A stretch of DNA of 64,000 nt from positions 203,822,001 to 203,886,000 of the forward strand of contig NC_092587.1 in assembly GCF_047663525.1 (NCBI RefSeq). Reading direction: 5' to 3'. Position numbers and translations under genes: made by a program. The notes under the pieces were generated by a model, which saw only the letters and a list, made by a program, of their open reading frames with translations, was not told the origin of the DNA and searched no databases. Shown one piece after another: positions 12,148 through 43,756 of this stretch. Source of the DNA: Anas platyrhynchos (Eukaryota > Chordata > Aves > Anseriformes > Anatidae). The stretch's first letter is position 1, and each line of letters opens with the position of its first letter.

Positions 12148-22764
<10,617 letters not shown>

Positions 22765-24200
22765 AGCTGTGTTGGTGGGACCCGTTCCAGGTTATCCCTT
22801 GAAGAGGGTTATCCAGCACAGTGAGGCGTTGTTGTCTTACAGCCAGCTGTATGTTTACCATCTCCGTGAGGAGAGTTTTTCTTCCAACACTTCCGTACTG
22901 TCCAACTGCTGTACCTCTGCTCAGAAACACTCGTCACAATAATGTGGTCCACTGAGACTATACTTTGCCACGAATAAACTGTGAAGCTTAACAAAAAAGG
23001 ATTTTGTATTCTTGTTAACTATGTAAGAGGTTCAGGCTTCTGTCCTGAGGAAAACCTGCCTGGCTTTCCCGTTACTGTCTGTATTTGAATAAAAAGGGAA
23101 CCAGAAATTACAAGAGGTCATGGTGGTGTAGCGAGAGCATTGTAACTGCATACTGTGGAATATGGAAATAAAAGGAACTTGGTATTTTTGTTTTCAGCCT
23201 TTCTTGCCCCTTTTTCAGCTCCTGTCCAAGCTTTACTGTTGAGGTACAAATAAGGACGTAATGTCCTTGGGGAAACTCTTGGGGTGCTCTGTGAAGCTTC
23301 TGAACACCTGAAGCCACAGCTTTGCATTTCTGCTTAATGTGGCCATGTCCCTTTGATCTATTTCATAGCCTTTTCAAGGAGGTTTTAATGTATTCTAATC
23401 ACACCTACTTTAGAAGACAAGGTTTTTGAAAACCTGCTGTCCCTCAGAGATTTTGCTCTAGGAATAGGATTGTTTTGGGCCCCAGTGATGTCACACCCAC
23501 AAATGGGGAGGGATTCTGTGGGGGAGGGCAGAGGGGATGGAGCTTTTGAGCAGCTTTTGGACTTCAGCCCTGTCAAAGAACGAGGTCCCCTTTAGAGGGG
23601 ATACTTGATTAAAAGTCTCCACTCTGAATATTTTGGATGTTAAAGTAATGTGTGGCTCAGGTAGGAAAGCAGGTAGCAGTTAGAGGGGTTGCTGTGGCAA
23701 TAGGGGTGCTTGGAGTAGGATTTTAGGCAATTTGTGTAAACACAAGGTACCGATAAAACTATTCACAGATGACAAGCTCCTTTTCAGCTTTCTTCACTGC
23801 AGTTGTCATTACTTTCTCATAATTTCTTGAGGCCATTCTCTATAAATCCTGTCCCTGGTTACCTGTGAGCAGAGACCGACCCCCAGCTCCCTGCTTTGAG
23901 GGGGCTCCCGTGTCACCTCCAGCACCCTGCTATGGGACACTGATACCCAAACATCCTCCTTGTGGGGACAGACTAAATAATAAATAGGGTTAGATCGGGA
24001 AGTTGTGTTGTGTTTGGCTTTTTTTTATGGTTATGTTATTGTATGGGTATTGCTCTCACAGGTGGCTTAAGGTAATTTCAGATTCATTTAAAAGAAAAAT
24101 CATTCTGGGTCGCGCTACCATATTAATATTTATCTGTTTTGCAGAAAGAATTCTCAAAATGAAGTGTTTTTGAAGCAGTTTAACCAAAACTTAGGCCTTC
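22765..24200. other. ALG8 3-prime UTR and short intergenic gap
   Basis: Begins with the ALG8 3-prime UTR. Candidate poly(A) signals are AATAAA at 22973-22978 and another near 23089. Beyond these is unremarkable sequence up to the NDUFC2 CpG island. No gene is seen on either strand. Confidence 0.5.
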
Positions 24201-24209
24201 GAAAGCTGC

Positions 24210-24470
24210 AAAAACCTCACAGCCGCCGCGCCCCCTGCTCGACCACCACAAGAGGGCTCAGCCCCGTTACCACCACGCCGCTTGGGGGGGGGGGGGTGGC
24301 ATTTAGGGGAGGGCGTTTGCGTTAAAAACACCGATTTTCGTTCAAAATCGTGGTGAAAACAGAGGAAGGAAGGCGGCGGAACCCGTGTGTGAGGGGCGGG
24401 CGGGCTCGGCGGAGGGGCTGGCTGAGGCGCAGGGAGGCGGGCGGTCACCTTGGGCGGCCCGGGCGCCATG
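24210..24470 (+). promoter_or_regulatory. CpG-rich promoter region of NDUFC2
   Basis: Sharp rise in GC and CpG content just before the NDUFC2 start codon, with no TATA box. A GCGCCCCCTGCTCG stretch at 24228-24241 resembles the CTCF core but departs at two positions, so it is only a weak candidate. A poly-G run lies at about 24283-24295. Confidence 0.5.
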
Positions 24471-27400
24471 GCGGCCGTCCCTGAGGAGGCGCGGGGGCTG
24501 CCGCCGCCACCGCTGGTGAACAAGATGTCGGCGTGGCTGGGAGGCGCCGGCTGGTTGGCGGCACTGCTGGCCAATGGCTTCAGCCAGCGGCCCCTCCTCA
24601 CGGCAGGTAGGGGACGGGGGAAGGGGCTGGGGTGTGGGGTTTTGGGGTGGGTTTGGGGTTTGGGAGGGTGAGGGGAGGTGAGGGAGGTAGGGGGGAGAGT
24701 GGGTTGGGGGCGTTGGGGAAGGGGGAGTGAGGGGTTGGGGGGGAATGGGGAGGGTTTGGGGGGGGGGTTGAGGGGGAATGGGGAGGGATTTGGGGGGACT
24801 GAGGGGGAATAGGGAGGGATTTGGGGGCGATTCTGAGGGGGAATGGGGAAGGATTTGAGGGTCTGAGAGGTAATGGGGAGGACCTAGGGGGGACTCTGAG
24901 GGGGAATGTGGAGGATTTAAGGGGGGCTTTGAGGGGTTGGGGAGGGATTTGGGGGGATTCTGTGGGGTAATGGGGAGGGTTTAGGGGGTCTGAGAGGTAA
25001 TGGGGAGGGATTTGGGGGGTCTGAGGGGGAATAGGGAGGGATTTGGGGGTCTGAGAGGTAATGGGGAGGGTCTGAGGGGCAATGGGGAGGGATTTTGGGG
25101 TCTGAGGGGGAACGGGGAGGACCTAAGGGGGACTCCGAGGGGTAATGGGGAGGATTTAAGGGGGGCTTTGAGGGGTTTGGGAGGGATTTGTGGGGATTCT
25201 GTGGGGTAATGGGGAGGGATTTGGGGGGGCTGAGGGGTAATGGGGAGGATCTAGGGGGGGCTTTGAGGAGTTCGAGAGGGATTTGGGGGAATTCTGTGGG
25301 GTAAAGGGGAGGGACTTGGGGGCGATTCTGAGAGGTAATGGGGATGGATTTGGGGGTCTGAGGGGGAATGGGGAGGACCTAGGGGGGGCTCTGAGGGATT
25401 GGGGAGGGATTTGGGGTGCTGAGGGGTAATGAAGAGGGATTTGGGAGAACTGAGGGAGAATGGGGAGAATCTAGGGGGGGCTTTGAGGGGTTGTGGAGGG
25501 ATTTGGAGGAATTCTGTGGGGTAAAGGGGAGAGATTTGGGGGATCTGAGGGGGACTGGGGAGGGATTTGGGGGGTCTGAGGGGGAATGGGGAGGATCTAG
25601 GGGTAATGGGGATGGATTTGGGGGTCTGAGGGGGAATGGGGAGGATCTAAGGGGAGCTTTGAGGGGTTGGGGAAGGATTTGGGGGGCTGAGGGGTAATGG
25701 GGGAGGATTTAAGGGGGACTCTGAGGGGTTGGGGGGATTTGGGGGGATTCTGTAGGGTAATGGGGAGGGATTTGGGGGGATCCTGAGGGGATGTGGTGAG
25801 GGGTTTAGGAGGTCTCTGAGGGATTTCAGGGGTGTCTGAGGGATATGGGGAGGGATTTGGGGGGATTATGGTAGGTAATGGGGAGGATCTAAGGGTGGCT
25901 TTGAGGGGTTGGGGAGGGATTTTGGGGGCTGAGGGGTAATGGGGAGGATTTAGGGGGAATTCTGAGGGGTTGGGGGGATTTGGAGGGATTCTATGAGGTA
26001 ATGGGGAGGGATCTGGGGGGACTGAGGGGGAATAGGGAGGGATTTGGGGGCGATTCTGAGGGGAAATGGGGAGGGATTTGGGGGGTCTGAGAGGTAATGG
26101 GGAGGGTCTGAGGGGGTCTAAGGGGCAATGGGGGGGGATTTGGGGGTCTGAGAGGGAACAGGGAGGACCTAGGGGAGACTCTGAGGGGGAATGGGGAGGA
26201 TCTAAGGGGGGCTTTGAGGGGTTTGGGAGGGATTTGGGGGGATTCTGTTGGGTAATGGGGAGGGTTTAGGGGGTCTGAGAGGTAATGGGGAGGGTCTGAG
26301 GGTCAATGGGGAGGGATTTGGGGGTCTGAGGGGGAACGGGGAGGACCTAAAGGGGACTCTGAGGGGTAATGGGGAGGATTTAAGGGGGACTTTGAGGGGC
26401 TGGAGAGGGATTTCGGGGGATTCTGTGGGGTAATGGGGAGGGATTTGGGGGTCTGAGAGGTAATGGGGAGGGATTTGGGGGAATTCTGAGGGGTAATGGC
26501 AAGGATCTAAGGGGGATTTTGAGGGGTTGGGGAGGGATTTGGGGGGGTCTGAGGGGTAATGGGGAGGATCTAAGGGAGACTGAGGGGTTAGGGAGGGCTT
26601 TGGGGGGATTCTGTGGGGTAATGGGGAGGGATTGGGGGGGCTGATGGGTAGTGGGGAAGGATTTGGGGTGGCACTGAGGGGTAAAAGGGAGGATCTGTGG
26701 AGATTTTGATGGGTTGGGCAGGATTTGGGGGGATTCTGAGGGGATGTGAAGGGGTTTAGGAGGACTCTGAGGGATAATAAAGAGGATCTGAGGAGGGTCT
26801 GAGGGGTTGGGGAGAGATTTTGGGGGCGTTCTGACGGGTAATGGGGAGAGATTTGGGGACTCAGGGGTAATAGGGAGGATCTAAGGGGGATTTGGGGAAT
26901 CTGAGGGGTAAGTCTCCTAAGGGAGACTTTGAGGGGTTAGGGAGGGATCTGGGGGGATTCTGTGGGGTAATGAGGAGGTATTTGGGACTGAGGTGGTTTG
27001 GGGGATTCTGAGCGATTGGGGGTGATTTGGGGAGATTCTGAGGGGTAGTGGGAGGGATTTCAGGGGGATTGTGAGGGGATGTAAAGGGGTTTAGGAGGAC
27101 TCTGAGGGATAATGGGGAGGGATTTGGGGGGTCTAAGGGGATGTGGTGAGTTTAGGAGGACTGAGGGGTGATGGGGAGGATTTGAGGGAGGTCTGGAGGA
27201 TAATGGGGAGGGATTTGGGGGGATTCTGAAGGGTAATTTGTAGGCATTTGGGGGGACTCTGAGGGACACTGGGGAGGGATTTGGGGTATGCCGAGGGGTT
27301 GAGTGGTTTGGCAGGGATTCTGAAGGGCCTTGGGGATTTGGGATTCTGAGGGGTGTAGGGCAGGGTTTGGGGAGATTCTGAGGGGATGTGGAGCGGGATC

Positions 27401-28533
27401 TAGGAGGACTCTGAGGGGTAATGGGGAAGGTTTGGGGGGACTCTGAGGGATATGGAGAGGATTTGAGGGGAATTCAGGGAACTGGGGGGGAACCCTGAGG
27501 TGACAGGTGGGGGGGGCGGAATTTGGGGCAACTCTGAGATTTTGGAGGGGGATTTGGGGACAATCTGAAGTGAGGGATCTTTTTTTATTTCTTTTTTTTT
27601 GCGTCCTCGATGTCAGATCACCCTTTTTGGCCTTTTCTTTTCCCCTTGCAGGTGTTCACCGCCAGGTTCTCTTCACCACCGTGGGCTGGTTTGCCGGCTA
27701 CTTCCTCGCCAAGCGCACCGAGTACGTGCACGCCAGGAAGGACCGCGAAATGTTCGAGTACGTCAGGCACCACCCGGAGGACTTCAAGACAGCAGGTTGG
27801 TATTTTGGGAAAGACCTCATCCTGCCGTAGCATTTTGGTTAATAAACAAATATATAAATATAACAAGACGTCGATGTGCTGCTTGCAGGTTCTTTTTTGA
27901 CAACTCAAAATGCTTTTGATGCTTTTTCACGGTATTAATTGTAACAGCAGTCAGCAGTTAGCATCTGAAAGCAGGTATTTTTGTTAAGCTGATCAGCTCG
28001 ATGACCAACTCTTCCTCTTAATAATTTATTTATATATAAAAATGGCAGAGCCAAACCGAAATAAGCGGATCGACCAAAATTGTGCCAGTAAATGAAAATC
28101 CAAGAAAATAACGAATATCGGAAATCACAAAAAATGCCTCAGTAAATAAAAGTTTCGCTAGCAGCTGGGGGCAGAATTGTTTGTTTTCTAATAAAGCACA
28201 GCCAGCTGGCTGCCTGTTGGATAATGATGGCATCGTGCTGTGTCAGCGGGCGGCTGCAGACGTAAGGAGGCGTTGCAGAAGTGAGCTCTGCACTTCTGCC
28301 CCATGGAAAAGAAATTGCGTGCTCGGTTTGTGCAGCAAGCTAGCTGGTAGCAGGAGGCAGGTTTTTGGTGGCTTGGTAACCTTCTGAACAGGAAAATAGT
28401 GCTGGTTTGGGCATTTCAATCTTGAAAATTGATCTCAAATGCTGAACAGGGATTTTCCTAAACCATCTCCTTGCCCCTTGCAGGAAAGAAGAGAATCGGA
28501 GAGCTCCTGGAGGACTTCATTCCAATCCGCTGA
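24468..28533 (+). CDS. NDUFC2: NDUFC2, mitochondrial complex I subunit B14.5b
   Basis: Three exons, 24468-24606, 27652-27795 and 28484-28533, join in frame into 333 nt, 110 aa (human 119). The ATG sits in a good context (GCGCCATGG). NDUFC2 is a supernumerary inner-membrane subunit of NADH:ubiquinone oxidoreductase, needed for assembly of the membrane arm. Two hydrophobic segments are visible, about residues 22-38 and 52-68. The most conserved part is AGYFLAKR..Y..ARKDREMF.Y.R.HPEDF, then the C-terminal I.ELLEDFIPIR, which corresponds to the human IFEKFHPIR end. The N-terminus is shorter and more alanine-rich than the human one. The donor of intron 2 is weak (GTTGGT). A poly(A) signal AATAAA lies at 28649-28654. 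Intron 1 is almost wholly a G-rich minisatellite. Confidence 0.94.
24640..27560. repeat. G-rich minisatellite filling NDUFC2 intron 1
   Basis: About 2.9 kb of degenerate tandem repeats. The commonest unit is near 33 bp, of the form GGGGAGGGATTTGGGGG followed by GATTCTGAGGGGTAAT. Variants replace GATTTGGGGG with GATCTAAGGGGG, and a short 21-bp form occurs. At this unit length there would be roughly 90 copies. The non-template strand carries dense runs of three or more G, giving many potential G-quadruplexes. Long open frames seen in it follow from the repeat and are not genes. The array starts soon after the exon 1 donor and stops about 90 bases before the exon 2 acceptor. Confidence 0.93.
27796..27846 (+). 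terminator. Possible intronic poly(A) site of NDUFC2 after exon 2
   Basis: Reading through the weak exon 2 donor adds eleven codons, GWYFGKDLILP, and a TAG at 27828-27830. AATAAA follows at 27841-27846. This makes a potential alternative last exon. It is only a sequence possibility; no cleavage site can be confirmed. Confidence 0.35.
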
Positions 28534-28969
28534 GGGTTTCCCCAGCAGCTACAAGCCTGCGTCTCACAAAGCATCCTCCCAATTCCATCCTGAGAGCTCC
28601 TGCAGGCTGCTCATGGCCTGGGTAAAGAGCTACCCTTCATTTTCACTGAATAAAAGTTAGGATTAAACACAGAGTATTCAGGTTTTTGTTCTTCTGTTAC
28701 GTTATATCAATATATTTTGTGTTCTTATGTTGGTTTTTCTTTGCCTGGTGGTCAGGATTCAATCTTTCTGCCCTGCTTTGTGGATCCTAAGTCAGCACGT
28801 TGACCCCGAACGTGTTCCAGACGTGCTGAGAACCCGCAGCTCTCCTGAATTTCACTGCGGGGTGCTCAGCATGTCTGGAGGTGGGAGTATTTCCAGATGT
28901 ATTTAAACATTTAGGTCTGGAAATATAAAAAGGTGGAAGAAAATACTGCAGGTGCGGCCATGCCAGGGA
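28534..28969. other. NDUFC2 3-prime UTR and flank before the THRSP palindrome
   Basis: Contains the end of NDUFC2 (poly(A) signal at 28649) and about 300 bases of ordinary sequence. No gene is seen. The left arm of the THRSP inverted repeat begins at about 28970. Confidence 0.5.
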
Positions 28970-29411
28970 TCTTTGGAGCTCAGGGCAGGTCACAGCCCCT
29001 TCTGGGTGTCCCCCCCATCCTCCCAAATCCCTCTCATGGGGTCACCTCCCCTTGACAAAACCGTCTTTCCCCCCTTGGAGAGGTGGCTCCTGCCTCTCCC
29101 CAGCACACGCTGAGCCTTGCGCCGGCTCCCACAGCCCCAAAACCCAAAGTGTCCCCCTCCCAGCTCCCTGGGGCCCCTCTGGGGCCACTTGTCCCAGCCC
29201 TGTGCTGGGGCTGCAGACGGACCCCACTGTGGGGTCGGGGCCCCGCTTGTCCCCGTGTCCCACAACACCACAAGCACGCGGCCGCTTCGGAAGAGTCCTT
29301 TTATTAGCAAAGAGAGGGGCAAAGGCCCGCGCGGCTCCAGGTACCAGCTGGAACCAGCTCCGCAGAGCTCGGGGCGAGAGCGCAAGGCCGCCGCCTGCCC
29401 CCGCCGCCGCC

Positions 29412-29415
<4 letters not shown>

Positions 29416-29442
<27 letters not shown>
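29416..29442 (-). repeat. (CAG)9 in the 3-prime UTR of THRSP copy 1
   Basis: Nine CTG on the plus strand, which is CAG in the transcript, within the second, non-coding exon of copy 1. The mirror position in copy 2 has the same count. Copy 3 lacks it. Confidence 0.9.
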
Positions 29443-29447
<5 letters not shown>

Positions 29448-29689
29448 CGCCAAGCGAGAGGAGGGCGCGAGGCGGGCAGCTCCGTGGCGGCCCCGGAGGG
29501 CGGCGAGGGCTCTGGCGCTGAGGGTCCGGCCCCACGGCGTTCCCCGCGGGTCCTGGCGCTGGAGGTGGAGGAGCGGGGCTGCGGGAAGAGGCAGAGACGC
29601 CGCGTGATGCCCGGGCTCCGCCAGCACCTCCCCGGGGCCCCCCCGGGCTCCGGCCCCCAGCGCTCGCTCACCTGGAGCCCGCGGCGGCT

Positions 29690-30091
29690 TCACCAGCTGG
29701 GCTGCCCGTCGCTGGGGCTGATCTGCTCCAGGATCTGGCTGTACCTGCGCGTCAGGGCCGTGGTGTCCCTGGCCAGGTGGCTGAGGACCTGCTGCAAGCC
29801 GGCCAGGTGGTGGGACAGGCGCTCCTCCAGGTTGCCCTCGGCTCCGTCGTCCGGGGCCGCCTCGGCGTCGTCCTCGGCGTCCCCGCTGCCGCCGGGGTCG
29901 GTGACGGAGGCCAGGCCTCGCTCCACCACGGGCTTGATGGCCTTGAGGAGCTGGTAGCGCTCATACAGGTCTGTGGGGCCGCCCTCGGGGGCCTCCCCGT
30001 CCCGCTCCTGCTGCGGGAAGACCCCTCGCAGCAGGCTGGGGAACATCACCTCCTGCTCCATCTTCTGGGTGGCCGACAAGTACTGCTCCAT
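29690..30091 (-). CDS. THRSP: THRSP (Spot 14) copy 1, in the ancestral position
   Basis: Single coding exon, 133 aa (human THRSP 146), starting MEQYLSATQKMEQEVMFPSL. The ATG at 30091 was chosen over an in-frame upstream ATG because it aligns with copy 3 and lies just below the TATA box; the upstream codon sits in or before the start region. Spot 14 is a small, acidic, thyroid-hormone- and carbohydrate-responsive protein. It promotes lipogenesis, pairs with MID1IP1 and influences acetyl-CoA carboxylase polymerisation. The conserved N-terminal helix (VMFPSLLRGV) and C-terminal amphipathic region (LEERLSHHLAGLQQVL) are intact around an acidic middle (DAEDDAEAAPDD). The 3-prime UTR is split by a 93-bp intron (29579-29671). 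The poly(A) signal is at 29300-29305. It is tail to tail with NDUFC2, as in mammals. Confidence 0.93.
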   Translation of the reverse strand: MEQYLSATQKMEQEVMFPSLLRGVFPQQERDGEAPEGGPTDLYERYQLLKAIKPVVERGLASVTDPGGSGDAEDDAEAAPDDGAEGNLEERLSHHLAGLQQVLSHLARDTTALTRRYSQILEQISPSDGQPSW

Positions 30092-30135
30092 GGCCTCAGC
30101 GCTTCTCCTGCTGCTCCCCGTGTGTCCCACAGAGG

Positions 30136-30144
30136 CTTTTTATG
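30136..30144 (-). promoter_or_regulatory. TATA-like box of THRSP copy 1
   Basis: CTTTTTATG on the plus strand, CATAAAAAG on the coding strand, 44 bases before the ATG. The same word at the same spacing precedes copies 2 and 3. A purine-rich tract (GGGGAGGAGGAAG type) lies just upstream in all three. Confidence 0.75.
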
Positions 30145-31102
30145 GGGCCGGGCACGGCCCCGCTCCGCTCTCCTCTCCTCCCCTCTGCTTCCTCCTCCCC
30201 TGGCCGGGCTGGGCTCCAGCCCCATGTCCCTGGCTCTGCCCGCGCGTGGCCTTGGCCCCAGCTGGCCCCCGGTGCCGCTGTGTCCCCAGGGTACCCAGAG
30301 AGCCGGGTGGCGAGGAGGGGAGGGGATGTGCCGTGCGGCCTCTGCCTGAAGATTTCCCATCCTGCCAAGGCCACTCGGGAGGCTGGGGGTGTCACTGCCG
30401 CTGGGGTGGCTTTGGCTGGGGCTCGGTGGCCGCACTGTGTCCCTGGCTCTGCTCCCCCTGCCCCAGCGGTGCTGCTGCCACCCAGGGGGACGTCCCCTCT
30501 GCCCCCGTGCCTGTCCCCCACTGTCCCATTGGGGCCACGGGTGTTGAGCAAGGCCCTGAGGCAGCCAAGGCTCAGGGGGACACACAGGGGGACACCACCT
30601 CCTGCTCCCCACCCCCTGGGCTGAGCGTTGTCCTCCTGGGCTGCTGCGGGGCTCGGGGCAGCTGATGGGGTCTCAGCAACCCAAGGATGGTCCCTGGCAC
30701 CGCAGCGTGTCTGTCCCCATGTGCCGGGGGTGCTGCTTTCAGGGAACGTGGAAAAAGCCAAGATCAGAGCAGGGCTGAAGTTCTGCTGAGCTCCCACCGG
30801 GACCATGCCCGGCGGTGGCGCCTGGCGCTTGCAACAGGGCCAAAGGCCGGGCTGCCAGGGAGTGTGGCAACCCGCTCCTATTTTGGGATCAGCCACAGGG
30901 TCCTTTGGCCCTTTGGCAGCCCTCGCCGGTAGCAGCTCTGCCCCGCATGCACACCGCGGGACGCTCTGCCCCACGCGCTCTCACGCTGGGGCCCCGTGGC
31001 CTCCCCCACCTCTTCCCCTAAACGGACCTAAACGTGCCCCTAAAGGACCAGGGGCTGGAGACCCCAAGGCACAGGACCCTGAGTAGCTGCTGGGGTCGGG
31101 CC

Positions 31103-31697
31103 ACAAAAATATTGAGCAGAGTGGGCACAAAGGAGTCCATGGACCCTCATGGGATGCACCCAGGGGTGCTGAGGGAGCTGGCAGGTGGCGATGCAACAAG
31201 GGGAAATCGTGCCTGAACTAGTCGAGATGCTGCTAAAAGGAAATCACCAGCTTGATGGGAGAGGAGGGAGCAGTGGATTTTGTCTCACTGGACTTCTATA
31301 GGGCTTTGACGCTGTCCCCATAACATCCCCATGGAGTCGCTGCTGAAGTAGGGGAAGGGGGAGAGGCCAGTGAGGGGTTTCAAAAACCAGCTGAATGGCT
31401 GCACCCAGAGAGGGTGGCAGGGGAGCAAAGTCCTGCTGGAAAATGGACACACGTGGAGCACCCCGTGGGCAGTATGGACCCAGCTGTGTTTGACAACTTC
31501 AGTAAGGATCCGGGCGGCCCCGCAGATTGCAGCCTCAGCAAGTTTGCTGATGCCATGGCACGGGGAGGAGCGGCAGGTTGGGCACAGGGCCCCACAGCCA
31601 TGAGGACGTGGCCAGGCCGGGAGGTGGGCTGAGAAACATCTCCTGGAGCTCAGTGAGGGGAAGCACAAAGCCCTGGCACCACAGGGACACACTGCTG
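31103..31697 (+). repeat. Decayed CR1 ORF2 remnants forming the core between the palindrome arms
   Basis: This non-palindromic spacer shows scattered but ordered matches to the CR1 reverse transcriptase region on the plus strand. These are GGGATGCACCCAGGGGTGCTGAGGGAGCTGG, then a GCAGTGGATTTTGTCTC segment (V-D-F-V, followed by L-D-F and the A of the RT motif), then CAGCAAGTTTGCTGATG, then GTGGGCTGAGAAACATCTCC. Segments between these are missing, so it is a LINE with internal deletions. No gene is present. Confidence 0.75.
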
Positions 31698-32654
31698 CCC
31701 AACCCCAGCAGCCACTCGGGGTCCTGTGCTTTGAGGTCTCCAGCCCCTGGTCCTTTAGGGGCATGTTTAGGTCCGTTTAGGGGAAGAGGTGGGGGTGGCC
31801 ACAGGGCCCTGGCGTGAGAGCGCGTGGGGCAGAGCGTCCCGCGGTGTGCATGCGGGGCAGAGCTGCTACCGGCGAGGGCTGCCAAAGGGCCAAAGGACCC
31901 CGTGGCCGATCCCAAAATAGGAGCGGGTTGCCACACTCCCTGGCAGCCCGGCCTTTGGCCCTGTTGCAAGAGCCAGGCGCCGCCGCCGGGCATGGTCCCG
32001 GTGGGATCTCAGCAGAACTTCAGCCCTGCTCTGATCTTGGACTTTTCCCTGCGAGCAGCACCCCCAGCACATGGGGACGGACACGCTGCGGTGCCAGGGA
32101 CCACCCTTGGGTTGCTGAGTCCCCATCAGCTGCCCCGAGCCCCACAGCAGCCCAGGAGGACAATGTTCAGCCTGGGGGTGGGGAGCAGGAGCTGGTGTCC
32201 CCCTGGGTGTCCCCCTGTCACCTCTGTGCCTTGGCTGCCTCAGGGCCTTGCTCAACACCCATGGCCCCAACGGGACGGTGGGGGACAGGCACGGGGGCAG
32301 AGGGGACGTCCCCCTGGGCGGCAGCAGCACCGCTGGGGCAGGGGGAGCAGAGCCAGGGACACAGTGCGGCCACCGAGCCCCAGCCAAAGCCACCCCAGAG
32401 GCAGTGACACCCCCAGCCTCCCGAGTGGCCTTGGCGGGATGGGAAATCTTCAGGCGGAGGCTGCACGGCACCTCCCCTCCCCTCCTCGCCACCCGGCTCT
32501 CTGGGTACCCTGGGGACACGGTGGCACCGGGGGCCAGCTGGGGCCAAGGCCACGCGCGGGCAGAGCCAGGGACATGGGGCTGGAGCCCAGCCCGGCCAGG
32601 GGAGGAGGAAACAGAGGGGAGGAGAGGGGAGCGGAGCGGGGCTGTGCCCGGCCC

Positions 32655-32663
32655 CATAAAAAG
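32655..32663 (+). promoter_or_regulatory. TATA-like box of THRSP copy 2
   Basis: CATAAAAAG, 45 bases before the ATG, preceded by a long purine-rich tract at about 32597-32640. Initiation 25-30 bases downstream would leave a 5-prime UTR of only about 20 bases. Confidence 0.75.
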
Positions 32664-32707
32664 CCTCTGTGGGACACACGGGCAGCAGCAGGAGAAGCGC
32701 TGAGGCC

Positions 32708-33109
32708 ATGGAGCAGTACTTGTCGGCCACCCAGAAGATGGAGCAGGAGGTGATGTTCCCCAGCCTGCTACGAGGGGTCTTCCCGCAGCAGGAGCGGGAC
32801 GGGGAGGCCCCCGAGGGCGGCCCCACAGACCTGTACGAGCGCTACCAGCTCCTCAAGGCCATCAAGCCCGTGGTGGAGCGAGGCCTGGCCTCCGTCACCG
32901 ACCCCGGCAGCAGCGGGGACGCCGAGGACGACGCCGAGGCGGCCGCGGACGACGGAGCTGAGGGCAACCTGGAGGAGCGCCTGTCCCACCACCTGGCCGG
33001 CTTGCAGCAGGTCCTCAGCCACCTGGCCAGGGACACCACGGCCCTGACGCGCAGGTACAGCCAGATCCTGGAGCAGATCAGCCCCAGCGATGGGCAGCCC
33101 AGCTGGTGA
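32708..33109 (+). CDS. THRSP: THRSP (Spot 14) copy 2, in the right palindrome arm
   Basis: 133 aa, differing from copy 1 at two residues only, both in the acidic middle (G68S and P80A). The gene is complete: TATA box, ATG in the context GAGGCCATGG, stop at 33107-33109, donor CAG|GTGAGC at 33128, acceptor CCCCCAG ending at 33220, second non-coding exon with (CAG)9, and AATAAA at 33494-33499. It is transcribed away from copy 1, with about 2.6 kb between the two start codons. The function should be that of Spot 14 (lipogenic regulation with MID1IP1). Chicken is known to have two THRSP paralogues, called alpha and beta; which copy here corresponds to which cannot be settled without alignment. Confidence 0.92.
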   Translation: MEQYLSATQKMEQEVMFPSLLRGVFPQQERDGEAPEGGPTDLYERYQLLKAIKPVVERGLASVTDPGSSGDAEDDAEAAADDGAEGNLEERLSHHLAGLQQVLSHLARDTTALTRRYSQILEQISPSDGQPSW

Positions 33110-33351
33110 AGCCGCCGCGGGCTCCAGGTGAGCGAGCGCTGGGGGCCGGAGCCCGGGGGGGCCCCGGGGAGGTGCTGGCAGAGCCCGGGCATCACGCGGC
33201 GTCTCTGCCTCTTCCCCCAGCCCCGCTCCTCCACCTCCAGCGCCAGGACCCGTGGGGAACGCCGTGGGGCCGGATCCTCAGCGCCAGAGCCCTCGCTGCC
33301 CTCCGGGGCCGCCACGGAGCCGCCCGCCTCGCGCCCTCCTCTCGCTTGGCG

Positions 33352-33356
<5 letters not shown>

Positions 33357-33383
<27 letters not shown>
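33357..33383 (+). repeat. (CAG)9 in the 3-prime UTR of THRSP copy 2
   Basis: Nine CAG triplets in the non-coding second exon, the mirror image of 29416-29442. The equal count in both arms fits recent duplication or ongoing conversion. Confidence 0.9.
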
Positions 33384-33387
<4 letters not shown>

Positions 33388-33887
33388 GGTGGCAGCGGGG
33401 GCAGGCGGCGGCCTCGCGCTCTCGCCCCGAGCTCTGCGGAGCTGGTTCCAGCTGGTACCTGGAGCCGCGCGGGCCTTTGCCCCTCTCTTTGCTAATAAAA
33501 GGACTCTTGCGAAGCGGCCGCGTGCTTGTGGTGTTGTGGGACACGGGGACAAGCGGGGCCCCGACCCCACAGTGGGGTCCGTCTGCAGCCCCAGCACAGG
33601 GCTGGGACAAGTGGCCCCGGAGAGGGGCCCCAGGGAGCTGGGAGGGGGACACTTTGGGTTTTGGGGCTGTGGGAGCCAGCGTGAGGCTCAGCGTGTGCTG
33701 GGGAGAGGCAGGAACCACCTCTCCAAGGGGGGAAAGACGGTTTTGTCAAGGGGAGGTGACCCCATGAGAGGGATTTGGGAGGATGGGGGGACACCCAGAA
33801 GGGGCTGTGACCTGCCCCGAGCCCCAAAGGAGCACTCCACAGCAGATCAAGCCCTCACCACCACGGCATGGGCTCTGCTCTGCTGGA

Positions 33888-34319
33888 GGTGACCCCATAA
33901 GGAGGGCTGACCCCAGAAGGAGGGCCAACCCCATAAGGAGGGATGATCCCATGATGAAGGTTGACCCCATGAGGAGTGCTGATCCCATAAGGTGGGCTGA
34001 CCCCATGAAGAAGGCTGACCCCATAAGGAGGGATGACCCCACAATGAGGGATTACCCCATGAGGAGGGATGACCCTATAAGGAGGGATGACCCCATAAGG
34101 AGGGATGACCCAATGAGGAGGGATGACCCTGTTAGGAGGGCTGACCCCATAAGGATGGCTGACCCCACAAGGAGAGCTGATGCCAGAAGGAGGGCCAACC
34201 CCACAAGGAGGGATGACCCCACAAGGAGGGATGACCCCATGAGGAAGGTTGACCCCATGAGGAAGGTTGACCCCAGAACGAGGGCTGACCCCATACGGAG
34301 GGCTGACCCCATAAGGAGG
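33888..34319. repeat. 18-bp minisatellite, 24 units
   Basis: Tandem copies of an 18-bp unit close to GACCCCATAAGGAGGGCT. The block is exactly 432 bp, that is 24 units with no insertion or deletion, though many units carry substitutions. Because 18 is a multiple of 3, several frames stay open on both strands; one encodes a degenerate DPIRRA/DPIRRD hexapeptide repeat. There is no start context, splice signal or homologue to suggest a protein. It lies between THRSP copies 2 and 3. Confidence 0.93.
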
Positions 34320-35430
34320 CTGGAAACAAGGCAGGAGCTGGGAGGGAGCGGGCAGGCAGCAGCCCCGTGCAGGATCCATGGGTTATGGAGCAGGGTGGGG
34401 GTGACAGAAGCAGCAGAATGGGGATTCAGTGGGGTCACCTCCAGCCCTTACAGGTGAGCAAGGAGGTGCCTGCATGGCACCGCCATGGAGAAATCCCCTA
34501 AATTCGGGACAGATCTGTGTCCCATGCACTTCCTCATCCTGGCACAGCTGTGGGTTTCTGTCTGATCCCCAACCATGGGGTGGTGACGCGGGGAGGCGCT
34601 GAAGCTGTCCTGTGGCAATGAGATCTGGGGAAAAAGAAGAAATCTGGGGAGAAAAGTCCCGTGGGGAGTGGGAGATCCACCAGGGGGCCGCGCTGCCATA
34701 CAGAGGGACCTGGACAGGCTGGGGAGGTGGGCTGAGAAATATCTCCTGGAGCTCAGGGAGGGGAAACTGGTCAGAACCAGCCCTGGACCCCCCAGCACCA
34801 CGTGGACCCGCAGGTGCCCGAGCCCAGGAGCCACGCGGGGTGCTTGGGGGGGGAATGTCCCCGCGGTCATTCACCCACCCGGAGCAGGAGGACGGGGGCT
34901 GAGTGAGGGGGAGGAGGTGGCAGCGCGGTGAGGAAGGCTGAGCCCAGCTCAGGCGATGCTCCTGGCTCAGGATTTTGGGTTGGCAGCTGGAGAAGCTCCC
35001 GGTGCCCTGGGCAGGGTCCCGTCAGGGCATCCGGAGAGCTCAGCACCGCTGATGAACGTGACTGATAAGGGCCCCAAGATGTTCCAGGCAGGGGCTGTGA
35101 CCTGCCACCAGCTCCAAAGGTCCCTGGGCAGCACCCCACAGCAGATCAGGCCCCCTCCACCACGGCAGGGGATGCTGCAACAGCCCCCGTTGCCACTGCT
35201 CACAGAGATTTACCCCAAAAGGACTGCAGCGTTGGGTTCTCAGCCTCACACCGGGAACTGATCCCAAAATCGGTGAGCTGAGTGTACAGACACGAGCGGG
35301 AACACAGGGGACAACCCGCAGTGCTGGACCAAAGACTTCCAGCCCCCTGCCTGGTGCCCTGCTGTCACCAGTGCCACCGAATCCCAACCGAACCCACCCC
35401 AAAAGGCAGCATGAAGCAGCCCAAGAGCCA
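34320..35430. other. Intergenic stretch between the minisatellite and THRSP copy 3
   Basis: GC-rich. It contains a short CR1 ORF2 relic on the plus strand at about 34705-34780 (GGGACCTGGACAGGCTGGGG, then GTGGGCTGAGAAATATCTCC). It also holds a segment at 35088-35180 that is related to the outer ends of the palindrome arms. An E-box CACGTG lies at 34799-34804. No gene is recognised. Confidence 0.55.
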
Positions 35431-35563
35431 TCCAGCTCCCTGGGCACCCGGGGACACGGCGGCACCGGGGCCAAGTGGGGCTAAGGGCACAGCCAGGGAC
35501 ATGGGGCTGGAGCCCAGCCTGGCCAGGGGAGGAGGAAGCAGAGGGGAGGAGAGGGGAGCAGAG

Positions 35564-35572
35564 CATAAAAAG
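35564..35572 (+). promoter_or_regulatory. TATA-like box of THRSP copy 3
   Basis: CATAAAAAG, 42 bases before the ATG, with the same purine-rich tract upstream as in copies 1 and 2. Homology to the copy 2 promoter extends upstream to about 35430 (GGGGACACGG..GGCACCGGGG). Confidence 0.75.
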
Positions 35573-35613
35573 CCCCTGCGGGACACACGGGCAGCAGCAG
35601 AAGCGCTGAGGCC

Positions 35614-36015
35614 ATGGAGCAGTACTTCTCAGCCACCCAGAAGATGGAGCAGGAGGTGATGTTCCCCAGCCTGCTGCGAGGGGTCTTCCCGCAGCAGGAG
35701 CGGGACGGGGAGGCCCCTGAGGGCGGCCCCACGGACCTGTACGAGCGCTACCAGCTCCTCAAGGCCATCAAGCCCGTGGTGGAGCGAGGCCTGGCCTCCG
35801 TCACCGACCCCGGCAGCAGCGGGGACGCCGAGGGTGACACCGAGGTGGCCCCGGATGACGGAGCCGAGGGCAACCTGGAGGAGCGCCTGTCCCACCACGT
35901 GAACGGCCTGCAGCAGGTCCTCACCGACCTGACCAAAAACACCAAAGCCCTGACGCGCAGGTACAGCCAGATCCTGGAGCAGATCAACCTCAGCGACGAT
36001 CAGTCCAGCTCGTGA
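35614..36015 (+). CDS. THRSP: THRSP (Spot 14) copy 3, with a diverged C-terminal half
   Basis: 133 aa, the same length as copies 1 and 2. Residues 6-73 are identical to copy 2, and only L5F differs before that. From residue 74 onward 17 of 60 residues differ, mostly in the C-terminal amphipathic part (copy 3 HHVNGLQQVLTDLTKNTK against copy 2 HHLAGLQQVLSHLARDTT) and at the tail (NLSDDQSSS). The promoter is conserved. The donor GAG|GTAAGA lies at 36041. The likely acceptor is CCCCGCAG ending at 36780, with the non-coding exon 2 running to a poly(A) signal AATAAA at 37131-37136. The intron would be about 740 bp against 93 bp in the other copies, and there is no CAG repeat. The exon 2 assignment is inferred from signals only. 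The frame is intact, so the copy is probably functional. Confidence 0.92.
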   Translation: MEQYFSATQKMEQEVMFPSLLRGVFPQQERDGEAPEGGPTDLYERYQLLKAIKPVVERGLASVTDPGSSGDAEGDTEVAPDDGAEGNLEERLSHHVNGLQQVLTDLTKNTKALTRRYSQILEQINLSDDQSSS

Positions 36016-36780
36016 GCCTGCACCCCCGCCAGCCTCCGAGGTAAGAGTTTTGGGAGATGAGGAGCCCGAGGAGGAGCCGGCCAAGGGGTGGCACAGTGTC
36101 ATCTCCTTGCCCCATCAGCTGGGCGTCTTCCCAGCGTTTGCATCACTCCCCCAAACCCCAGAAGTTTTGAGCCTTCGTTTTGAGCCCTTTGTTGCTCAAC
36201 AGCTCCTCCAGTGTTTGTCCTGCTCAGTTGCCAACTGGCACAGGGCTGTGCCGCTGGACAAAGGTCACTTAGCGAGCTCCAAGTTGTCCCCAAAGCCCCC
36301 AGCTTGCAGTTTAGGCAATGTCTGGCTCCTGCTGGGCGGACTCCAAATATCCCAAAGCATCTTCAGGGAGGAAGGGGCCGGGTGCTTGGAGGACCCCGAG
36401 TTTTGGTCTGCAGGAGCTGCCAGACACTGGTGCTTCAGCTGCTTCTCCTTCCTCTCGGAGGAAAACCATAGGATTAATTTTTCAGGGAGTAAATTGGCCC
36501 TTTTGGGTCTCCAGATGTCTAAATGAGACGTGCCATCAGCTACCTCAATCCTCCCTTAGCCTGGAAAACAAAGCCAGGCTCTGGGCTGGTAGGACTTCAA
36601 TCCCTCAGTCCCTTTGGCCCCTGTACCCAACCCCAACCACGGGCTCAGCACCCAACAGAGCTCTGACAGCGCAAGCATACAGAAAAGATGCCCTGAACAA
36701 CAACACCAACCCTAATTTTGGACAAAATTCAACCAAGGATGAGGTCTTTCCAACCAAACCACCTCCGTTTTCCCCGCAGG

Positions 36781-37155
36781 ATGCTCTGACGTCCACGGCC
36801 CAGCGGCAGCTTTTCTCCTGCGCCAAGTCCCACCGAGGAACGTCCTCTGTGACCAGCGCTGAGCTCGGCCGCCGGCCCGCCGGGCGCTGCCTGGACCAGC
36901 CAAGCTGCCCCGCGGCCGATCCCGCCGGCTTCGTCTCACCTCCGTGCCCTGAAGGTGAAATTTCCCTGCAGCAGGGCAGAAGCAAGCGTTCAGTGTTATC
37001 GCTCTGTATAAGGCATCTGTAACTTTGAAGCAAGGCTTTTATTTTATTTTATGTTATGTTATTTTATTTTTGCGTGTGTCTAAATTACCTCCCCACTGGT
37101 CTCTGATGATGTAACCCAAGGGTGGTCTGAAATAAAATGCAAAGCCTCAAGCAAG
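36781..37155 (+). other. Probable non-coding second exon of THRSP copy 3
   Basis: Begins after a strong acceptor (CGTTTTCCCCGCAG) and ends about 20 bases after AATAAA at 37131-37136. Vertebrate THRSP genes carry all coding sequence in exon 1 and a 3-prime UTR exon 2, which fits. A long ORF overlapping it (36318-37022) shows no known domain and starts inside the intron. Confidence 0.5.
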
Positions 37156-37183
37156 TGTGAACGTGTGTTTTATACGGGCTGAT

Positions 37184-37394
37184 CCCTTCCCTTCCCTTCC
37201 CTTCCCTTCCCTTCCCTTCCCTTCCCTTCCCTTCCCTTCCCTTCCCTTCCCTTCCCTTCCCTTCCCTTCCCTTCCCTTCCCTTCCCTTCCCTTCCCTTCC
37301 CTTCCCTTCCCTTCCCTTCCCTTCCCTTCCCTTCCCTTCCCTTCCCTTCCCTTCCCTTCCCTTCCCTTCCCTTCCCTTCCCTTCCCTTCCCTTC
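37184..37394. repeat. (CCCTT)42 pentanucleotide array
   Basis: An uninterrupted run of CCCTT/AAGGG units over 211 bp, about 42 copies, starting some 30 bases past the presumed 3-prime end of THRSP copy 3. It is a pure polypyrimidine/polypurine tract. Such tracts can form triplex (H-DNA) or G-quadruplex structures on the AAGGG strand and are length-unstable. Confidence 0.97.
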
Positions 37395-40300
37395 ATGTCT
37401 CACATTATTCCTCAAGGGAATAAATTATTTTTGCTCACCCTGTAGCCAGGCAGGGCTTCACCAGCTATTAAAACAAAAAATTACCTCTTTTATTCTGTTC
37501 CCCTAGATTAAAACAGGCGAGGAACCGGGCTGCATTAATAGCAACCAGGCAATTAAGCAACCAGCTGCTTTCGATGGCATCTTGGGGGCTTTCCAAGGCC
37601 ACCTCAGACACCTCCTCAGCCCTCAGCCACACATTCCCCAGGCACGCAGAGGTGGGTGGAGGAGATAAAGGACTGGAAGTGTTGCTGGTGTTTGCTCAGC
37701 GCCCGGCTGTTTGATTTAGGAGTGGCTCCTGGAGCTGCCCAGTGGCGCAGGAGCTATTTCGCAGCAGTCCTGGAGCAAACTGCTGCTGGTTTTGCTTTTT
37801 GGCCACGCTGTGCCTTGTTCCACGAGGCTGGAGGTGTCCCCAGTCCTGGTGTCCTATTGCCTGGCTCTTGAATCATAGAATCACAGAATCGTCTAGGTTG
37901 GGAGAGCCCTCCAAGATCACCCCATCCAACCTCTGACCTAACCCCAACCACTCCTCCACTAAACCATGTCACTAAGTCCAACATCTCAACGTTTTTTGAA
38001 GACCTCCAGGGATGGTGACTCCACCACCTCCCCGGGCAGCCCATCCCAACGCCTCACAACCCTTTTGGTGAAGAATTTCTTCCTAATATCCAACCTAAAC
38101 CTCCCCTGGTGCAACTTTAGCCCGTTCCCTCTCATCCTGTCCCCAGCTTTCCATGGAAATCTCCTTCCCTGCGATGCCCTGGAGCACGTGGGTCATGGAA
38201 ACAGGGCTCTTGAGGTGCCCTCTGCACCAGTTGATGACTCCAACATGACACGAAGGGTGGAGATCAGCCCTGGAGCACCTCCTACACGGAGCAAAGTGCC
38301 TTCATCTCCTCGAGTGACTTCTACACCAGGCAAAAGGGAACCCAAGGCCAACAGGAGCCGCTCAGTGCTGCTTCCAAGCTGCTTCCCCACGTCCAAGCTT
38401 CTCATTTCCCTCTCTGTTTTCACAGCTGCTTTCCGTAATCGTTCCATTATTTTTTTTTCCCCTCGGATATTTACTTGCAGAGGGGTATAAAACCCAGATA
38501 GGAATGCCGTCGACCTAATTCTCTGTAACAGAAGCTGCCTGCTGGATGTGTTAACGAAATAAATCTGGTAAAAAATTCTTGCACGGGCAACACTGCTTTC
38601 CAATCCGATGTACGAACGAGCACAGAGCTCTTCCAGCTCATTGTTGCGTGCCTATTTATACAATTTTCAGAACCACATATTTATTCCCCACGAAGCCATT
38701 GTCAAGTTGCTCGTTCCTCGGCAGACACCGAGTTATTTAACATGATTATTTTTGTCGCTCAATTATTTTTTTAATTACTTTTGTGGTCGCTTGTGTACAG
38801 GGTAATCCTTTCAGGCAATGCAAGGACGGTCCCTTGGAGTCTTGGAGATGTTCTTCTGCCATTCGAAAGCTGGGGACGGTGGGAGATCTACTTTTGAAGT
38901 GTCTACAGGAGAAATGTGATAGCTGTTGGCGACCTTCCCTTTGAGAACAGGAAGGGATCTATGACACTCTGAGCTTCTCACTAAGCTCTACGCAGTGGTG
39001 CCCCCAAATCCATCAAACCTGCAGGTTTTCTCTTCCCAGCTCAGTGCAACCATTGGAAAAGCCTAGCAGAGATCCTGGGTGGAAATTCCAGCTCAATCCA
39101 AAGAAAAATCCATCCCTCAAAGGGAGAAACCCCGCTAACCCCACTGAAACAGCATGGTGGTGGTCAAAGCCTCCCAATGGGTGTGGAGCAGCAGTGGAGC
39201 TACAATAGGGCTGCTGGTTGTGGGAATCCCAAAACCCTGGTCGCTCCAGGCTATGGAGACATTCACCCTCTTGGCTTTTTACTTCTTTCCCGAGGGAAGA
39301 ATGAAATTAAACCAGCCTGGGCTGGGTTTTACCAGCAGCGTGGAGCGCTGAGATCCCATTTCTGCCTTTCAGTGCTTGCTCCCCACCCACCGCTCTCCCC
39401 AGCGTTGCTGTGGCTGTGGGGTAAAAGGAGGGACACGAGCGCCTGTTTCCACTTAGTGCAGGCTCAGGGGGCTTGGATGCAGTCAGATGCTGCCCTGCAA
39501 AACCTTCCTCGACTGGGACAGCAAGCAGATCGGATGTGTGGCCCCAGTAATTCACGAAGGATTTGGTGTGACTGCCAAAAAAAGGCACCAAATCCCCGTG
39601 GGTAAGCAGTGATGTGCCAAGGGTTTGGGCTGCGAGAAAGTTTTTCCTTCAGGACCCTTTTTAGATCAGATGACTTTGGCACTTTAAAGTGGATCCTCAC
39701 CAAAAAGGAGAACAAAAAAAAATATCCAACTGGGAGTAATTTGCATAGCAGGACTGAGAAATGCCATCTTCAAGCAAGTCGTGCAGCTGGCGGGATTAAA
39801 AAGTCCCAGAAGAAGCACGAATAAAAACAATCAGATTTTCTACATACACGGTGACCTCCAGCCAAATATCTCAAAATGCTGATTCTAGGATGTCAGCTAA
39901 TTCCTCTTGCTGAGCTGGCGAGGATCTGTGTTGTGGCACTGAAGGTTTGTTGTCTCTTCTCTCATCAGCCACCCTCAATTCTGGCACGCGGAAATCTTCG
40001 AGGCAAGGTGTTGCACGAAGCAGCCTCTTCTACTGCTCTTCAGCATCTGGGTCCAGCTTTGATGGAGCCTTGAATGAGGACTGGATTTGTTGTAAAGGTG
40101 AGCGGGTAGAGGAGATGAAGCCTTTTATTAGACTGATGGACAAAGCTGGAAAAAAAGAGGCAAGCTGAAACAGAAGCTGAGAGACCTGAGGAAGCCTCCT
40201 GTGCCCCAAAGCCTGCACGTTTTTATCCATCTCCAGCAAAAACTCCTCTTAGCTTTGGACAACCACGTCCAGTTTGGCCAATAACGAAACAAAGACACAG

Positions 40301-41185: not shown

Positions 41186-43756
41186 ATGAGCATTTCGTCG
41201 GAGCACAAGCCCCTCGGGAAGCAGGTCACCGGCAGCCTGCACACGGTGAGTAAGGTACGGGCTCGGGGACACAGCTCTCTCCTCTGGGATCACAGCTTCA
41301 TTATAGGCTTCATTATAGGGTTTTTTGTCCCCCATCTGCTACTTCGAAGACACCAGGGCTTGCCAGATGTGTGGTGACGAAGAGGATTCTGCTTTGCTTA
41401 CAGAAGGGCCACGTCCCTCGCAGGCATACAAGGCAGCAGCAAACAGCCTAGGTGGTTATTTTTCTCTTTTGGCAAGTGGTGGAATTAATTTGATATTTGA
41501 TGTTAACCTCGATTTGCTGCATCCCTAACGTAAAAGTGTGCTGTGTGGGTTGTTAGTCTGGCTACTGTATTAACAAAGACTACGTTTTCCATTTGTATGA
41601 GTGGCAAACATTAGGAAACACTCAGCCTGCCTCCCGAAAAAGGAGCAAGGGCTCAAAAACATGAGACTCTCCTAATAATGAACCCTGCTGGGGAAAGCTG
41701 TTGTTATCACTTGGAGTAAGGGCAGATTTCCTAATTTAGAGGTTTTACTGTAGGAACAGCTTTGGGGTGTGCTTTTTAGCAGGTAGAAATCACTAGATAC
41801 TCTCAGAAAATTGTTTTCTCTTCTCTTGGCCCTGTCACAGATGCTTGCCCTTGAGACGAAGCCCCCATCGCTGGGGCAGCTGGGTCTTTGGCCAGCATCT
41901 CCTGTCATTTCCCTGGCTTGCCTAAGCCGTGAGCTCATTTCTGCTGGACCTCACGGCTTGCTGCTGTTTTAAAGACGAGGTTTCCCCCAGCCATGAGTTG
42001 TCTGTTCCTATCCCCTCCTCTTGCCAGCTCTGGCTGGCACGCTTCACTTCCAGCATGTGACTGGAGGCACTGGGGCAGATCCTTGCGTGGTCAGATCCAA
42101 GGAAGAGGAGGGCTGGTTGTTGACTCGCTCCGTCCCAATGGCAGGCGTGGTCCTGGGAGTGTGATTTGTCACAGGAGTGACGTTGTGAGAGGAAAGAAGT
42201 GCCTCATTTCTTCCTCTTCTCGCTCGACTGAGCGCTAAAAAAACCCAAAGGGAGGCTGCTAAAAGTTCTTCAGCAAGGTCAGAAGTGACGCCAGGTCCCG
42301 CGCTCTGCGCAGGCCTCACCTGACATTTCAGACAGTGAACTAAAAGAAACATAAATCAAAATCCAAAATTTGCCTTCTTCCTTCTTCAATCCACCTCAGC
42401 TCCATGAATTATCCTCTTTACATCCCATCTCATGCTACCACAAGCAGATACTGAGGTAAAAAGATTCTGTGCTCCACCTCAGACATGCTGGATGGTGGCA
42501 TCCTGCTTCAGGGTTTGTAACAGACCCCCCAGACAGCTGAAAACCAGTCCCACCACGTCTAAGATTTCAAAAAGCTTGAGTTTTGCTTCTGAAGAGAAAA
42601 TATTACCTCAGGTGAGAGGAACGGAGCTGCACAGCTTTGAGATGTATCCTCACCCCTCTGCAGTGCAGCAACAGGAGGGTGAGGGCCCTGAAAGCAGAGA
42701 TAACGCTCATGTGGGGTTTAGGAGATCGACATCAAACCCCAAAACCACTGACAGCTTCCCCAGGACTCTTCTTATCTGTCTTTCCTACGGGTAAAATGAC
42801 TCTGCTATGTCCCAGGGATGTGGTGAGGACCCATTTAGAAATGTCCAAGTCTCTGCTGCTCTGGTTATGTGGACCAAGCATAAATATCCTAAATTTAGAA
42901 ACAAATGATGAGGACATTCCCATCCACCCCCCTTGGGACAAGGGTTCATCCTGCTCTTTACGCTGCCATTCCAATTTCCAGCTGCAATTGTATTTATTTT
43001 TTCCCCTTTTCCCTGACTCTTCCATGCTGACAGCCACTGAGGGGTAACACATGTGGGGTTTTTGTTCCCTTGTGCCACCCGCAGCTATCACCCATTGTGG
43101 AGCTGAACGTCGGGGGGGAGCTGTACACGACGACGCTGAGCACCCTAAAGAAACACCCTGGCTCCAAGCTGGCAGAGATGTTCACCGGCCAGCCCAAACT
43201 CAGGCGAGACTCAGAGGGAAGGTTCTTCATCGACAGGCCGGGCACCTATTTCAAATACATCTTGGAGTACCTGCGCAGCAACCAAGTGCCCACCCAGTGC
43301 GTCCAAGATGTCTACAAGGAGGCCTTGTTCTACGACATCGAGCCCCTGATCAAGCAGCTGGAGGACTCCCCACAGATTTTCGGGGAGCTCGTGGCAAGGA
43401 AGCAGTTCCTGGCCCGCGTGCCCAACTACAGTGAGAACATCGAACTGATGATCCGCATCGCCAGGGCGGAGGCGGTGGCGTCCCGCTGCTCTGGTGTCAT
43501 CGTCTGCGTTGTCCGAACGGAGGAGGACGCGGCCAGGTGCCAGGATGCCTTGAACAGTTTGGACATGGACAAAAAATCCGTGGTGAAGTTCGGCCCCTGG
43601 AAAGCAGCGCCGAGCATCTCTGATCTGCTGGACTGCATTCAGATGGATGTTGAAGCCAAAGGGTACAAGATATCCTTCCAGCCCCACGTTGCCGAGAAAG
43701 GTTTTCGCTTCAAATCGCACGACTTCTTCTACAAATTCCTGTTCACCTGGTGGTAG
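41186..43756 (+). CDS. KCTD14: KCTD14, BTB/POZ domain protein
   Basis: Two coding exons. Exon 1, 41186-41245, encodes MSISSEHKPLGKQVTGSLHT and ends at a strong donor (ACG|GTGAGTAAG). Exon 2, 43085-43756, starts after the acceptor CCACCCGCAG and continues in phase 0 with LSPIVELNVGGELYTTTLST. The product is 243 aa. The BTB domain covers about residues 23-120 (VGGELYTT; FFIDRPGTYFKYILEYLRS). The C-terminal half contains PQIFGELVARKQFL, ARAEAVASR, SVVKFGPWKA and the terminal FTFTWW-like FLFTWW, as in human KCTD14 (FTFTWW). KCTD14 is poorly studied; a Cullin-3 adaptor role is inferred from the family. Exon 1 is inferred from frame, splice signals and position, since human N-termini differ. An exon 2-internal ATG at 43070 lies before the acceptor and was rejected. 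Candidate poly(A) signals are at 44113 and 44394. Confidence 0.9.

Follow-up and report, generated by a model that had tools for sequence, protein, structure and literature searches.

The window considered here, 64,000 nucleotides of contig 1 of Anas platyrhynchos (NC_092587.1, positions 203,822,001 to 203,886,000 of the forward strand), is likely to carry a three-gene avian THRSP (Spot 14) cluster, located between NDUFC2 and a KCTD gene, in which one gene (copy C) is alpha-type and the other two (copies A and B) derive from an inverted duplication of the second type of gene. The inverted duplication within this three-gene cluster is genuine. A first-pass annotation, made from the DNA letters, had described a two-gene palindrome, which is accurate as described but incomplete, since the third THRSP, at 35614-36015, was overlooked. 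The elements of the cluster are as follows.

28971..31101, minus strand: left inverted-repeat arm, which contains THRSP copy A (self-BLAST)
31102..31696, plus strand: spacer between the arms, of which 31190-31671 is an interspersed fragment of the long interspersed nuclear element (LINE) type
31697..33829, plus strand: right inverted-repeat arm, which contains THRSP copy B (self-BLAST)
29690..30091, minus strand: copy A coding sequence with stop codon, 133 amino acids (Pfam Spot_14, E 2.8e-24)
29579..29671, minus strand: copy A intron in the 3' untranslated region (3'UTR), 93 bp, placed by splice-site matches
29300..29305, minus strand: copy A poly(A) signal
32708..33109, plus strand: copy B coding sequence with stop codon, 133 amino acids (Pfam Spot_14, E 1.1e-24)
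33128..33220, plus strand: copy B 3'UTR intron, 93 bp, measured in B
33494..33499, plus strand: copy B poly(A) signal
35090..35178, plus strand: orphan arm end upstream of C, a copy of the outer end of the arm with 79% identity to 33800-33878 and, over 38 bp, 89% to 28963-29000
35614..36015, plus strand: copy C coding sequence with stop codon, 133 amino acids, with a C-terminus of the chicken THRSP type (Pfam Spot_14, E 3.9e-24)
36041..36779, plus strand: putative copy C 3'UTR intron, 739 bp, its acceptor chosen by product length
36780..37136, plus strand: putative copy C second exon, up to the poly(A) signal at 37131

In the self-BLAST of the window, the two arms appear as inverted copies of each other, with 95.94% identity over 2142 columns (67 mismatches, E = 0), and their global alignment counts 68 substitutions per 2122 aligned bases and 5 internal indels. 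The borders agree to within a base with the palindrome of the first-pass annotation (28970-31102 and 31698-33830), and its further statement that both arms contain whole genes was confirmed by the presence, in each of them, of the 133-residue frame, the TATA box (at 30137 on the minus strand in copy A and at 32655 on the plus strand in copy B), the 93-bp 3'UTR intron, nine perfect CAG units and the poly(A) signal. The arm alignment and this gene anatomy also support the inverted duplication into divergent twins that had been proposed on that occasion. In particular, the start codons of A and B (30091 and 32708) are 2.6 kb apart and each gene has its own TATA box, so that transcription most likely proceeds outward, from one core promoter for each gene. 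The proteins differ at only two residues, as already indicated in the earlier description, namely 68 (G/S) and 80 (P/A), and the values computed for both are 14.6 kDa and an isoelectric point (pI) of 4.44. At the coding level, the differences occur at 4 of 94 synonymous sites versus 2 of 305 non-synonymous sites (Fisher p 0.03), and the twin proteins are shown to be under constraint. If avian sites are assumed to change at a rate of 1-3 per billion years, the overall divergence of the arms would correspond to an age of roughly 5-16 million years for the duplication.

The third intact THRSP, copy C, is found 2.5 kb past the coding sequence of copy B and in the same orientation as B, and the region 35427-36015 aligns with the arms at 87.6% identity over 622 columns (self-BLAST). 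Pfam Spot_14 (PF07084) spans nearly the whole protein in A, B and C, with 85.8-87.6 bits compared to a curated cut-off of 21, and 3ONT, likewise a Spot 14 protein, is the sole relative in the PDB. Furthermore, the splice signals in all three copies fit a one-exon coding sequence followed by a 3'UTR intron, as predicted from DNA alone. The AlphaFold model of B, built from three near-identical sequences, showed a mean predicted local distance difference test (pLDDT) score of only 55.8, and 0 matches were obtained with Rfam at the gathering threshold in the region 24000-38500. When the whole genome (1.26 Gb in 42 contigs) was searched in six frames with the B protein, four matches were obtained at E up to 10, i.e., B itself (100%), A (98%), C (87%) and a relative with 41% identity, which sits elsewhere on the same contig, outside this cluster, and which we take to be the paralogue MID1IP1. 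A MID1IP1-type gene is listed on chicken chromosome 1 in the available portion of PMC10976558.

The relationship of copy C to chicken was examined with primers for chicken THRSP (NM_213577), as given in the accessible parts of PMC5579026 and PMC5623058. Each primer of pair one matches copy C at 17 of 20 positions, and A or B at 13 of 20 at best; of pair two, one primer matches C at 22 of 23 positions and A and B at 15 of 23, while the other, identical in A, B and C (19/19), is uninformative. Two overlapping chicken primers give a stretch of 31 bases, 28 of which match C and 20 of which match A or B, and these bases encode VLTDLTKNTK, which corresponds exactly to residues 102-111 of copy C, whereas A and B have VLSHLARDTT at that location. 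As for the product lengths, six AG sites occur in 36700-36830 (products of 130 to 220 bp), and the acceptor at 36779 comes nearest to the chicken length, with 178 bp predicted in C versus 175 in chicken for the intron-spanning pair one; pair two has a predicted product of 181 bp in C versus 184 in chicken. Moreover, an intron variant of the chicken alpha gene is reported at 965 bp after the ATG (excerpt of PMC7649070), which fits the 739-bp intron of C and not the 93-bp intron of the twins. Judged from the primer stretches alone, copy C is the counterpart of the alpha-type chicken gene THRSP (NM_213577).

The idea, put forward in the first pass, that the twins represent the two paralogues of chicken could not be maintained: because the chicken THRSP primers fit C and not the twins, A and B are not simply chicken alpha and beta. 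They are probably two copies of the second-type gene, the counterpart of chicken THRSPB (beta). Chicken THRSP, THRSPB, NDUFC2 and INTS4 are listed within one 1-Mb window in Table 7 of PMC10976558, as far as the excerpt goes. The chicken liver proteome, in the part of PMC5070854 at hand, lists a "spot 14 beta 2" of 14.52 kDa and pI 5.10, an indication that the liver of chicken produces a beta-type protein.

According to the model that we propose, A and B would have arisen by the inverted duplication of a stretch of about 2.1 kb, with an old LINE fragment in the middle, and each of them would be transcribed outward, with a core promoter, coding exon, 3'UTR intron and poly(A) signal to itself. 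All three genes would be expressed in liver and fat and, by analogy with Spot 14 elsewhere, may pair with a MID1IP1-type partner and tune acetyl-CoA carboxylase and lipogenic genes. In the available text of PMC6995218, Spot 14 relatives are said to form pairs (S14-S14R) and to act on acetyl-CoA carboxylase. In the 1 kb upstream of A, B and C, the best sites for the estrogen response element, the direct repeat 4 (DR4), the carbohydrate response element (ChoRE), the CCAAT box, the E-box and the sterol regulatory element (SRE) were equalled by at least 21 of 100 shuffles, and those for the HNF4-type direct repeat 1 (DR1) by 5, 5 and 1 of 100, respectively; since seven motifs were tried on three genes and the shuffles kept base composition only, no response element is claimed. 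The estrogen-response chromatin immunoprecipitation primers of chicken (PMC5579026) find no convincing place in the window, the best match being 15 of 19.

Some considerations weigh against the model. The comparison with chicken consists of four primers only, corresponding to 82 bases, with two primers overlapping by 12 and all four designed for THRSP, and the assignment of A and B to the beta type is a tentative one. A single bird genome is behind the lineage and the age of the duplication, and the expression pattern is a prediction. In addition, "spot 14 beta 2", if the name stands for another beta locus and not for an allele, could imply that the pair is old and shared.

A different history of copy C, possible although somewhat doubtful, is that its promoter and 5' coding region were exchanged with those of the twins, leaving the old alpha type only in the C-terminus and the 3' part. 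Copy C does resemble the twins closely in the proximal promoter and coding exon (the 87.6% reported above), and no significant similarity is found 3' of the stop codon (best E 0.016); the C-terminus of C is common to chicken, and the C-specific coding changes rise at codon 96, from 9 of 285 sites before it to 18 of 117 after it (p 0.004). However, the step is carried by the first and second codon positions (3/190 versus 15/78), whereas the third positions are even across codon 96 (6/95 versus 3/39, Fisher p 0.72), and selection on the C-terminus therefore explains the step as well as an exchange does. Likewise, the 19-base chicken primer that is identical in all three copies lies in the first half of the coding sequence, which indicates that strong conservation is possible without exchange. 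A description of C as an internal gene-conversion mosaic was also considered and dropped: the step at codon 96 is significant, but the even third positions make selection an equal explanation.

A wider scenario, which we consider improbable, is the concerted evolution of the bird THRSP cluster: the inverted pair would aid exchange, with the promoter and the first two thirds of the three proteins near-identical, selection would keep the VLTDLTKNTK and VLSHLARDTT types of C-terminus, each lineage would separately tune the number of second-type copies, and a further copy, since deleted, would have left the orphan at 35090-35178 as its scar. The orphan arm end is matched at this locus only (genome search with 33500-34300, every candidate scored, and likewise for the left end), and it is possibly the scar of a lost copy.

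As regards the arms, the earlier annotation had favored gene conversion over a very recent event. That the inverted pair is old and that recurrent conversion between the arms maintains their likeness, in the manner of sex-chromosome palindromes, is in our opinion unlikely, even though part of the evidence is in line with it. The divergence is moderately uneven, with 33 of 571 sites (5.8%) differing beyond -430 versus 35 of 1551 (2.3%) elsewhere (permutation p 0.007) and, when coding sites are left out, 33/571 versus 29/1149 (p 0.03); the arms are GC rich (70%) compared to the spacer (58%) and to the sequence just left of the left arm (45%), and the LINE fragment of the spacer is only 66-72% identical to the three relatives compared. 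On the other hand, synonymous (4/94, 4.3%) and non-coding (62/1720, 3.6%) divergence agree, as simple ageing predicts, and the runs of identity do not exceed in length those obtained by shuffling (p 0.23 for the longest run and 0.10 for the sum of squares). Furthermore, copy C used as an outgroup polarizes 11 twin differences, 5 of which arose in A and 6 in B, leaving one-way overwriting unsupported; the GC content to the right of the right arm is also fairly high (58%), and the arm identity of 95.9% is below the >99% criterion for a conversion-maintained palindrome. The GC step is sharp at the left border of the left arm, from 45% outside to 67% inside, and mild at the right border of the right arm, from 67% to 58%; the former is of the type reported for conversion-prone palindromes and is also expected for a CpG-rich gene. 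The steep GC climb at the left border of the palindrome, from 0.45 to 0.67, extends over 28571-29270.

What is left of the conversion claim is the uneven divergence between the arms, which lends modest support to some exchange or to constraint on the gene-near part, and to which selection on the UTR could contribute. In the comparison of coding with flanking divergence, suggested in the first pass as a check, the synonymous and non-coding values are about equal, as ageing predicts. The indels in the flanks, which had been taken as an argument for conversion, do not separate it from ageing.

Although inverted copies are a known assembly artefact, an assembly fold-back or haplotype duplicate is very unlikely here, since the substitutions look evolved, being mostly transitions (53 of 68) and strongly CpG biased (CpG is involved in 36 of the 51 gap-free transitions versus 527 of 2044, or 25.8%, unchanged sites given a mock transition), and since the arms differ by 3.2% substitutions and 5 internal indels where a fold-back expects near-identity or sequencing-type errors, the twins show a synonymous excess over non-synonymous differences and private derived sites in each of them with C as the outgroup, and the window, at 203.8 Mb on a contig of 207 Mb, is without any N.

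The duplication of THRSP in chicken was reportedly described by Wang in 2004 and that in duck by Zhan in 2006, and a goose Spot 14 alpha is said to have been described by Su in 2009. The cluster with A, B and C resembles the chicken THRSP and THRSPB pair (Spot 14 alpha and beta) in belonging to the same family, in the same NDUFC2/INTS4 neighbourhood and in the fit of C to the chicken THRSP primers; different from chicken, reported with two copies in the available section of PMC2996973, it comprises three genes, two of them as an inverted pair. A likeness can also be noticed with the primate X-chromosome palindromes kept by gene conversion, as presented in the excerpt of PMC8981503, with regard to the inverted arms and a GC content richer than that of the flanks, but the arms here are short (2.1 kb) and 96% rather than >99% identical, and contig 1 is taken for an autosome. 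In the parts of the avian THRSP literature that were covered, no three-gene set or inverted THRSP pair was described in a bird. Two chicken copy-number papers, PMC4226851 and PMC7364486, mention THRSP. Avian THRSP duplication is already on record (chicken, duck), and it is the third copy and the inverted pair that were not met in that literature.

THRSP is a candidate gene for poultry fatness, and the literature, in the portions available, speaks of alpha and beta or of two copies. Should some birds indeed have a third near-identical copy, expression and association studies that rely on primers would be blurred by it. The inverted pair offers a naturally occurring setting in which gene dosage and gene conversion can be tested at a lipogenic switch.

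The gene order in the window is KCTD21-like, NDUFC2, A (minus), B (plus), C (plus) and another KCTD gene. A THRSP tail to tail with NDUFC2 is the mammalian arrangement and, in agreement with the first-pass annotation, it holds here for the left copy. The further features are given below.

4479-5261: KCTD21-like gene (Pfam KCTD11_21_C)
27507..27830, plus strand: NDUFC2 terminal exon, tail to tail with copy A (Pfam NDUF_C2 in 27507-27827)
33890..34319, plus strand: minisatellite with an 18-bp unit in about 24 copies, between B and C
43070-43756: another KCTD gene

The spacer fragment at 31190-31671 has relatives on many contigs and is presumably CR1-like. One of the three copies of the element that were compared (L015 frame) encodes Pfam RVT_1, and the open frame of another (L002) gave 0 Pfam families. 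At the border between the spacer and the right arm (31673-31728), a piece of 45-59 bp has four more copies (83-88%) within about 0.45 Mb on the same contig and is a local low-copy repeat. The 74% likeness between 31587-31725 and 34685-34844 was considered as a possible common duplicated unit and dropped, because an interspersed repeat forms the start of the block upstream of C (37 among the best 40 scored of 268 candidates in a genome search), so that the likeness is no evidence.

Just upstream of the terminal NDUFC2 exon, a large degenerate G-rich minisatellite with a unit of about 31-33 bp occupies nearly 3 kb (24704-27570), and a perfect array of 42 TCCCT units is located just 3' of the copy C poly(A) signal (37183-37394). 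Finally, a direct pair of 148 bp with 96.6% identity, at 17405-17552 and 56589-56736, 39 kb apart, is perhaps a young repeat.

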